A stretch of 64,000 nt of DNA. It comes from Ruegeria sp. A3M17. Its GTDB lineage: Bacteria > Pseudomonadota > Alphaproteobacteria > Rhodobacterales > Rhodobacteraceae. This document shows positions 28,360 to 30,556 of this stretch, piece by piece; position 1 is the first letter of the stretch, and the number at the start of each line of letters is the position of its first letter. The stretch lies in assembly GCF_003318255.1 (NCBI RefSeq), contig NZ_QOCF01000008.1:62001-126000 (forward strand), read 5' to 3'. Below the pieces are notes generated by a model. That model was given only the letters and a program-made list of their open reading frames with translations. It was not told where the DNA came from and ran no database searches. The translations under genes and the position numbers were made by a program.

Positions 28360-28827
28360 TTAGTTCACGGCTTTGGCGTCGACCACGTCCTTTTCGATGG
28401 CATTGGCCGAAGAAATCTCGATCCGGCGCGGTTTCAGTGCTTCGGGCACTTCGCGCTTCAGGTCGATGTTCAGCATCCCGTCTTCGTGATTGGCGCCGGT
28501 GACGCGCACGTGATCGGCCAGCGCAAAGCGGCGTTCGAACGCGCGGGTGGCGATGCCACGATGCAGATAGCTGCGCTCTTTGTCTTCGGCGGCTTTTTTG
28601 CCCGCGACGATAAGGGCGTTTTCTTTCATTTCGACCGACAGGTCATTTTCCGAAAAACCGGCGACAGCAACCGAGATCCGATAGGTGTCGGCATCGGTCT
28701 TTTCGATGTTGTAAGGCGGGTAGCTCGGCTGAGCCACATCATTGGTCAGCACGCGATCCATCATGTCGGCGATCTGGTCGAAACCAACGGTGGCACGGTG
28801 CAGGGGTGCAAAATCAAAACTACGCAT
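28360..28827 (-). CDS. Small heat-shock protein, Hsp20/IbpA type
   Basis: ATP-independent chaperone that holds unfolding proteins. The 155 residues contain an alpha-crystallin domain (about 38-135) with 'YRISVAVAGFSENDLSVEM', 'RSYLHRGIATRAFERRFAL' and 'HEDGMLNIDLKREVPE', and a C-terminal IxI motif (IEI within 'KPRRIEISS') used for oligomer assembly. It closely follows class A bacterial small heat-shock proteins. The leader RNA can fold a ROSE-like hairpin over the ribosome site, and a sigma-32-like promoter overlaps the stop of the upstream protease gene. Confidence 0.95.
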   Translation of the reverse strand: MRSFDFAPLHRATVGFDQIADMMDRVLTNDVAQPSYPPYNIEKTDADTYRISVAVAGFSENDLSVEMKENALIVAGKKAAEDKERSYLHRGIATRAFERRFALADHVRVTGANHEDGMLNIDLKREVPEALKPRRIEISSANAIEKDVVDAKAVN

Positions 28828-28925
28828 GTGTCATATCCTCATATCAGAGCGATCTGTGTTCTGCCCTCCGTTCGGACGGGCATCTGGTTGATACGGGCCC
28901 CGTTCGTGGCGACCCGATACAGTTC
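28828..28925 (-). ncRNA. Probable ROSE-like RNA thermometer in the hsp20 leader
   Basis: In the minus-strand leader, AUCGCUC (28853-28847) can pair with the Shine-Dalgarno GAGGAU (28840-28835) across a six-base loop, leaving one bulged G opposite the ribosome site. This is the hallmark of ROSE elements (conserved UYGCU facing the SD). The leader length (about 95 bases) and the small heat-shock gene behind it also fit. Folding of the 5' part was not computed. Confidence 0.5.
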
Positions 28926-28954
28926 ACATGGGTAGCAGTTTGACCGAGTTCAAC
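28926..28954 (-). promoter_or_regulatory. Sigma-32-like promoter for hsp20
   Basis: In the minus-strand direction GTTGAA (28954-28949) and CCCATGT (28932-28926) are separated by 16 bases, close to the alphaproteobacterial RpoH pattern (CTTGAA and CCCATnT). It overlaps the end of the protease gene at 28950. The match is approximate. Confidence 0.4.
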
Positions 28955-29765
28955 CCCCGCCCGAGCTGATGAATTTCGCGCCGGAATTCGACTTGTCGGA
29001 CCCGACCTGCAACCGGCGGATCGTTGCCTGTGGACGCGGGGCATCGCGCCGCAAGTCCGCCTTGAGTTCGGCAACGATTCCAGACAGTTCCATCCCGTAT
29101 CCGGCCACACGACCCCCGTAGGTTCCGATCGCTGAGACAACTGACAGGATCTGCCAGCGTGGGCCATTTCTGGCCAGCAATGCCGAACCGGACGAGCCAA
29201 AGGTGATGTCGCAGTTGAAGGTAATCAACCCTTGCTGGCGACCCAGGATACGGCAAGATCTTTCCCGCGTGATCGCCTGGGACCGGCCGCGCCCGTAGGA
29301 GGCCAGGCTGACCTCGGTTCCGGCAACGCGCCCCTTATGCAAGGCAAACGGATTGGCGATGGAATAGGGGATAGGCTGTTCCAAACGCATCAGCGCAACA
29401 TCGGCGCGGACAGTATCCGGTGACAACCGGGCATTGCTGACATAATCGGGGTTCACGGCAATCTGCACGACCTTGCGATCTGCCAGCGCTTCACCATGAC
29501 TCAAACCGGCGCGGAACGTCACCTTTCCCGGCTCGTAGGGTTTGCCGCTGGCCTTGTCCACCGCACAGTGCGCAGCAGTCAAAACCAGATCCTGCGCAAT
29601 CAGGGTGCCGGTGCAAAACCCCTGATCGCCTATGTCCAGACGTCCAACAGCCTCCCATCCGTAAAGATCATCGCGATCCGTCAGCTTGCGCTTGGCGGTC
29701 TGGGCGTAAGTTGCAGTGGCGGAAATTGAAAGGAACAAAAGAAAATTCAGAACTAAACGACTCAT
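28950..29765 (-). CDS. Secreted trypsin-like serine protease (copy B)
   Basis: A 271-residue S1-family protease with a signal peptide (cleavage near 'TATYAQ'). The catalytic triad is complete: His66 in 'TAAHC', Asp122 in 'ADVALMRL', and Ser192 in 'GSSGSAL', where the usual GDSGGP is GSSGSA. Cys pairs flank the His and Ser regions. It is the downstream member of a tandem pair; its start overlaps the stop of the other copy by four bases. The triad positions are identical in the two proteins, suggesting tandem duplication. The substrate is unknown. Confidence 0.88.
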   Translation of the reverse strand: MSRLVLNFLLFLSISATATYAQTAKRKLTDRDDLYGWEAVGRLDIGDQGFCTGTLIAQDLVLTAAHCAVDKASGKPYEPGKVTFRAGLSHGEALADRKVVQIAVNPDYVSNARLSPDTVRADVALMRLEQPIPYSIANPFALHKGRVAGTEVSLASYGRGRSQAITRERSCRILGRQQGLITFNCDITFGSSGSALLARNGPRWQILSVVSAIGTYGGRVAGYGMELSGIVAELKADLRRDAPRPQATIRRLQVGSDKSNSGAKFISSGGG

Positions 29766-30556
29766 GGTTTAATAAACCTTGCTCCAATATTGCGACGTGT
29801 CCCACCTTGGGAGGAAGACACGCCAAATCCGCGACCAGCTGACAACTCTGCCTGCAGCAGTTCCAATGAATCCTCGACCGCTGTGCCGATCGCCACGCGC
29901 TGCCCGTTGAATTCGGCCTTGGCCGCAACGACCGAAACGATGCGCGGCCGGTCCCCTTCAAAAGAAAAGACCGGCGCGCCTGACGACCCGAATTCGACGT
30001 CACAGGACAACACCAAAACGTTGGATGTGCGCGTCATGACCGAGCACACTTCTTGCAGCGAGGGGGCCTCGGCCCGGTCCTGCGCGTAAGACACGACCCC
30101 CACTTCGGCACCTCGGGACGGGCGGTCTCCGGTCTCGAACGGAATTACGCTCGTGCTGCGGATCGGTTGCCACAACTCAATCAGCGCGATGTCATTGTAT
30201 AGCCGCGAGGCTGTTGCTTCGGTGCTGTATTCATAGGCCGGGTGAACAACAGCGCGACGTGCGGCCCGATAGGCCGATGCGCGCCCAAGACGCCAGGCGG
30301 CCAGAAACTCGACCTCTGCTAGGTCAATCCGCTGACCGGTCACCTTATCGAACAGACAATGAGCAGCCGTTAAAACCTGGGTCGGAGAAATCAGTGTCCC
30401 GGTGCAAAACCCGGCGCCGTCCCTGATGTCCAAGCGCCCGACCGCCATCCACGCGCGCCCCGCATCGGTGGTGTCCAGGCTTTTCAACCCGGTATCCTGA
30501 GCTGCGGCGGACAACGGCATCAAAGCCAGCGCCAATGCTGTGATCCAGTTTCGCAA
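29762..30556 (-). CDS. Secreted trypsin-like serine protease (copy A)
   Basis: A 264-residue S1-family protease with signal peptide MRNWITALALALMPLSAAAQ. The triad is His66 ('TAAHC'), Asp122 ('NDIALIEL') and Ser192 ('GSSGAPV'). It shares layout and several segments ('AVGRLDI', 'GFCTGTLI') with the neighbouring copy, to which it is translationally coupled by ATGA. No propeptide or C-terminal anchor is visible, so it is probably periplasmic or released. Confidence 0.88.
   Translation of the reverse strand: MRNWITALALALMPLSAAAQDTGLKSLDTTDAGRAWMAVGRLDIRDGAGFCTGTLISPTQVLTAAHCLFDKVTGQRIDLAEVEFLAAWRLGRASAYRAARRAVVHPAYEYSTEATASRLYNDIALIELWQPIRSTSVIPFETGDRPSRGAEVGVVSYAQDRAEAPSLQEVCSVMTRTSNVLVLSCDVEFGSSGAPVFSFEGDRPRIVSVVAAKAEFNGQRVAIGTAVEDSLELLQAELSAGRGFGVSSSQGGTRRNIGARFIKP

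Follow-up and report, generated by a model that had tools for sequence, protein, structure and literature searches.

The 64,000-nucleotide stretch of Ruegeria sp. A3M17 DNA analysed here (the window) carries on its minus strand a gene for a small heat-shock protein, hsp20 (28360..28827, 155 amino acids), whose product matches the HSP20 family (Pfam PF00011, E 5.6e-20, 71.8 bits) and has its nearest relative, among the matches listed, in Ruegeria atlantica HKCCD9103 (95% identity). Upstream of it, on the same strand, lie two trypsin-like serine protease genes in tandem with a slight overlap (28950-30556), and the hsp20 promoter overlaps the 3' end of the nearer one: a -35-like TTGAA (28949..28953, reading 28953-28949 on the minus strand) encloses the protease stop codon, TGA (28952-28950), and a -10-like CCCAT (28928..28932, minus strand) follows after a spacer of 16 nt. 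The original prediction had placed a promoter resembling the RpoH consensus across this stop codon and an AUCGCUC stretch opposite the Shine-Dalgarno sequence GAGGAU with a single bulged G, and both were found as described, the latter pairing at 28853-28847 and 28840-28835 of the minus strand.

Judging from the position of the promoter, transcription probably starts near 28921. The leader was found to form three hairpins on the minus strand, of which the two upstream ones, each with one bulged G, lay outside the original prediction. Hairpin I (28894..28916; CGGGUC-G-CC/GG-GGCCCG, bulged G at 28910) and hairpin II (28863..28881; GCCC-G-UCC/GGA-GGGC, bulged G at 28877) are both supported by folding and covariation, while hairpin III (28835..28853), the presumed thermosensor, pairs AUC-G-CUC with the Shine-Dalgarno GAGGAU and leaves the G at 28850 bulged.

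As for the promoter, we take TTGAA and CCCAT to be the consensus of RpoH (sigma-32). TTGAA-N15/16-CCCA was present in 68 of the 81 leaders compared (that of the window and those of the named loci), as against 38 of 8,100 mononucleotide shuffles, the remaining 13 leaders lacking these exact letters. The elements, their spacing and their conservation in relatives are all those expected of an RpoH promoter, and the genome encodes one RpoH above the NCBIfam cut-off as well as a second RpoH-like factor below it. Read from the promoter, transcription of hsp20 would depend on RpoH.

The folding energy of the whole leader was unexceptional (z -1.57) and, being unremarkable alone, leaves the case to be carried by cross-species comparison. 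An outer helix of the first fold was set aside because it uses bases of the -10 element, which are probably untranscribed, and the leader was refolded from its putative start. For the comparison, 71 of the 81 leaders, from Rhodobacteraceae, were aligned with MAFFT on sequence only (alignment A1); L036, L040, L044, L050, L054, L067, L088, L091, L095 and L102 were omitted, either as near-duplicates by eye or for a differing start coordinate. RNAalifold predicted the three stems from this alignment unprompted, minus two inner pairs of hairpin I, and 96.8% of the alignment's cells were paired under the structure given above. The covariation score was 0.308, compared to 0.149 in shuffles (0/500 as high) and at most 0.111 when the pairings were slid, and 10 of the 21 pairs showed changes on both sides, a count that 3 of 500 shuffles matched. 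Such changes were found in 5 of 8 pairs of hairpin I, 4 of 7 of hairpin II and 1 of 6 of hairpin III, and the support from covariation is accordingly greatest for the first two; hairpin III hardly varies, which would be expected with the ribosome site as one of its arms, and therefore contributes little covariation. In a second alignment (A2), composed of the window leader and 30 matches from other families of the class, both-side changes were seen in 16 of the 21 pairs, a count biased towards the structure since A2 was fitted to that of R1, the covariance model which we built from the 71 leaders of A1.

Turning to the Shine-Dalgarno hairpin itself, T[CT]GCT was found 5' of AGGA in all 110 leaders of orthologous genes (108 of them distinct), and a strict test for the bulged hairpin, in which the flanking pairs are also required, was passed by 78 of the 81 leaders. 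Across the window and 80 loci, 45 of 47 hsp20 starts passed this test versus 0 of 656 other gene-like starts (open reading frames of at least 150 amino acids, first ATG or GTG only), and among random 40-mers taken outside hsp20 leaders 64 of 300,000 did so. The bulged Shine-Dalgarno hairpin at hsp20 starts is beyond chance. The bulged G was equally regular in the other two hairpins, being present in 71/71, 68/71 and 71/71 rows of A1 for hairpins I, II and III, respectively, and in 31/31, 27/31 and 31/31 class rows of A2. The CC of hairpin I and two of the Gs partnering it vary no more than the Shine-Dalgarno hairpin does, though hairpin I masks nothing, and a hairpin of its form was found in 76 of the 81 leaders versus 123 of 8,100 mononucleotide shuffles.

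We searched with R1 for the distribution of the element. Within the family it matched 179 of 198 genomes, the weakest best match having an E-value of 5.5e-14; as the model was trained on the same family, this count describes distribution and is no independent proof. Hsp20 matches were obtained in 196 family genomes, 17 of which had no R1 match, so that the 19 genomes in which R1 found nothing comprise 2 with no Hsp20 match, 9 with a weak one (best E no better than 2.5e-33) and 8 with a better one. At the level of the class, where the counts include the window's genome and three others of its family, R1 matched 89 of 289 genomes at E<=0.01 and 69 at E<=1e-6, the best match of the other 20 being weaker than 1e-6. 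Of the class loci other than that of the window, the 29 with the highest scores (L123-L151) each end at most 9 nt from an hsp20 start. Four further matches in the window's own genome (L119-L122, E 0.002 to 3.1) were rejected as chance, as none lies by an hsp20 and no such Shine-Dalgarno hairpin was seen in them by eye.

Outside the class, a scan of the phylum gave R1 matches in 15 genomes, two of them below 1e-6 (G692 and G525). Of the six matches in the class to which G692 belongs, two (L157 and L165) lie at an hsp20 and the other four, which are weaker (E 6.4e-6 to 5.8e-4), lie elsewhere, for which reason only matches at or below 1e-6 were relied on. The G692 locus (L157:1501-1600, minus strand) carries the full three-hairpin element (56.2 bits) before an Hsp20 that is 51% identical to the window's, and its hsp20 may have moved between classes along with its leader. 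Several side observations were made in the course of these searches. G216, a small genome, gave seven weak R1 matches, the most of any listed genome, which may stem from chance or from a family of repeats. L085, from a record titled Nocardioides marinus, which we take to be an actinobacterium, has a typical Rhodobacteraceae hsp20 and leader, and its label is probably wrong. In Salipiger bermudensis (L047:3828-3977), RF02645, the Ruegeria cis2 sRNA, was found near hsp20 (106.2 bits).

The genome also encodes a second hsp20, equally absent from the original prediction, whose leader (G000:C8; L002:1268-1380, with a GTG start at 1378) holds a shortened element made of hairpin I and the Shine-Dalgarno hairpin only, with a bulged G in each, and a CCCATATT box. 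R1 did not match this leader in its search of the genome. The same two hairpins recurred in the leaders of paralogues: among the 30 best-scoring ones, drawn from 60 genomes with a match and counted without a shuffle control of their own, 30 of 30 had the Shine-Dalgarno hairpin and 29 of 30 a hairpin I with its bulged G. Two putative thermometers, one for each hsp20, agree with what is briefly reported in a 2011 paper on Nautella (PMC3230580).

The Rfam ROSE models did not find the element. The original prediction had proposed to check the leader with these models and to take the lack of a score as refutation; RF00435 (ROSE) gave it none, even at E 10. At both gathering and lax thresholds no ROSE match was found in the window, nor was there one at gathering thresholds in 15 further loci (14 relatives and the second hsp20 locus). 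The leader remained undetected by RF00435 at its cut-off of 45 bits, which none of 240 class genomes exceeded, and RF01832 (ROSE_2, cut-off 65 bits) had its sole match in the genome away from the leader (14.8 bits, E 5.87). We read the missing RF00435 score as narrowness of the Rfam model rather than as a refutation, since that model reached E<=0.001 in only 5 of the 240 class genomes, always at an hsp20 locus, and R1, which was built from this group, scores all five as well as the ibpA leader of E. coli. Four of the five loci scored 33.8, 33.3, 26.4 and 25.7 bits with R1 and that of G257 (L145) 45.9 bits, with E-values of 3.4e-9 or better (L113, L114, L115 and L117) and 1.1e-18 (L145); the R1 class scan itself listed three of these genomes (G257, G268 and G359), and G273 and G374 obtained an R1 score only when their loci were supplied directly. 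The ibpA leader of E. coli K-12 scored 29.5 bits with R1, all three hairpins being aligned, and 100.4 bits with RF01832. Through R1 the window leader is therefore tied by homology to the loci picked up by RF00435 with sub-threshold scores, and since R1 scores the loci of both families, we conclude that RF00435, RF01832 and the window leader represent one homologous element, though neither Rfam model detects the leader. In this way R1 joins both Rfam ROSE families in a single model, and a nearly family-wide putative thermometer is seen to escape the standard RNA library.

The anatomy of the leader, its covariation and conservation, its distribution and placement before hsp20, and its homology to known ROSE elements make it very probable that the 5' leader of hsp20, behind an RpoH-type promoter, forms a ROSE-like RNA thermometer of three hairpins, in which heat opens hairpin III for translation. 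On these grounds the thermometer originally predicted stands as an element, and its response to temperature is a predicted one. At growth temperature, AUCGCUC would pair with the Shine-Dalgarno sequence in hairpin III, the one unpaired G weakening the helix, and ribosomes would be excluded; upon warming, hairpin III would melt while hairpins I and II remained folded, allowing Hsp20 to be translated. RpoH would raise the amount of the mRNA in the heat, and the thermometer would gate its translation.

Nearest-neighbour computation gave a Shine-Dalgarno opening of 0.05 at 25 °C, 0.09 at 37 °C, 0.19 at 45 °C and 0.47 at 55 °C, absolute values that are rough because the energies omit the non-canonical contacts described for ROSE. 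The computed melting was weak across 25-42 °C (0.05 to 0.14). Removal of the bulged G of hairpin III left an opening of only 0.07 at 55 °C. Hairpin III by itself was predicted to be 42% open at 55 °C, which is near the behaviour of the full leader, and hairpins I and II stayed shut in the computation up to 55 °C. This modelled melting agrees with the picture obtained by probing of Pseudomonas elements, in which melting was seen for the Shine-Dalgarno hairpin but not for hairpin I (PMC3669281).

An alternative is that this conserved and structured 5' UTR serves chiefly mRNA stability or protein binding, such as self-repression by Hsp20, with temperature sensing playing a minor part. The core of hairpin I, conserved like hairpin III yet making no contact with the Shine-Dalgarno sequence, is in keeping with this, as is the computed opening of that sequence, which shifted by at most 0.01 once the bulged G was deleted from either upstream hairpin. 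E. coli IbpA, moreover, is described in passages of one report as binding its own 5' UTR, and repressing itself, through R93 (PMC10474464), and the Hsp20 of the window keeps the E. coli residues Y34, R93 and R97 as Y36, R95 and R99, with R100 at the position of K98. The residue match is weak support for self-binding, as R93 is said in the same report to be common in the IbpAs of alpha- and gamma-proteobacteria (PMC10474464), and in another relative (L126) the position of R97 is occupied by H. Hairpin III, on the other hand, combines U(U/C)GCU, the Shine-Dalgarno sequence and a bulged G in the way proven thermometers do, and R1 also matches the E. coli ibpA leader, which one account places among the best-studied ROSE-like thermometers (PMC3669281). 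We therefore regard a leader in which temperature counts for little as very unlikely, noting that protein binding and a thermometer are not exclusive and can both hold. An incidental bulged pairing, with control solely transcriptional, deserves almost no credence: the promoter is well conserved (68/81 leaders) and RpoH alone could account for heat induction, but none of the 656 other gene-like starts passed the strict test, and covariation and conservation extend across the class.

Within the thermometer reading, the three bulged Gs led us to a more tentative proposal, which we consider possible but doubtful. The bulged G may be a repeated module (Y-G-CC/GG in hairpin I, Y-G-UCC/GGA in II and Y-G-CU/AGG in III) that extends from Rhodobacteraceae to E. 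coli ibpA, with the 5' copies acting as putative recognition sites instead of masking the Shine-Dalgarno sequence, most plausibly for self-repression by the Hsp20 oligomer; by analogy with E. coli, we propose that the bulged Gs could exist because Hsp20 binds its own message. If so, the leader would be a two-input sensor, hairpin III reading temperature and hairpins I and II reading free chaperone. The pattern is latent in Rfam, where the bulged G appears at hairpins I and III of the RF00435 consensus and at II and III of RF01832, and a search of limited coverage among open-licence papers turned up none that takes up bulged Gs in the 5' ROSE hairpins. The function of these hairpins is called 'not fully understood' in one passage of the literature (PMC3669281); the conserved Gs offer a handle on hairpins I and II and narrow the question of their role to single testable bases.

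Compared with known systems, the leader has the features by which ROSE-like elements are described in the parts of the literature consulted, namely a place ahead of a small heat-shock gene, within its 5' UTR, and two to four hairpins, in the last of which U(U/C)GCU pairs imperfectly with the Shine-Dalgarno sequence, as a rule leaving a G bulged: it precedes hsp20 (as a 5' UTR by its putative start), pairs its Shine-Dalgarno in this manner and falls within the number of hairpins. The founding example is Bradyrhizobium hspA, of the rhizobial type, as mentioned in a paper that cites it (PMC4166951). Like the window element, RF00435 lies before hsp20, opposes U(U/C)GCU to the Shine-Dalgarno with a bulged G and has a bulged G in its consensus hairpin I (GCC...GG), but its consensus hairpin II lacks the bulged G that the window has and the lower stem of its Shine-Dalgarno hairpin is longer. 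RF01832, which includes E. coli ibpA, shares hairpin II with its bulged G (CCUGUCC...GGAAGG) and a Shine-Dalgarno hairpin with UCGCU and a bulged G; unlike the window element, the model omits hairpin I, and it leaves the window undetected. The short ROSE-like elements of Pseudomonas have two hairpins, as in the second hsp20 leader, whereas the window element has three (PMC3669281). Closest by clade is Nautella sp. R11, of the Roseobacter clade, for which a 2011 report places ROSE-like motifs ahead of ibpA and hspD (PMC3230580); the clade, the two small heat-shock genes and the class of element are alike, a comparison made with the single sentence in which that paper names the motifs, by description and not by sequence or structure. 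The original suggestion that an element in this group would be new consequently does not hold: ROSE-like thermometers are already known here and the window element is no first. What is new is the evidence from covariation, the distribution shown across the family, the joining of the two Rfam families and, as the main addition, the pattern of three bulged Gs.
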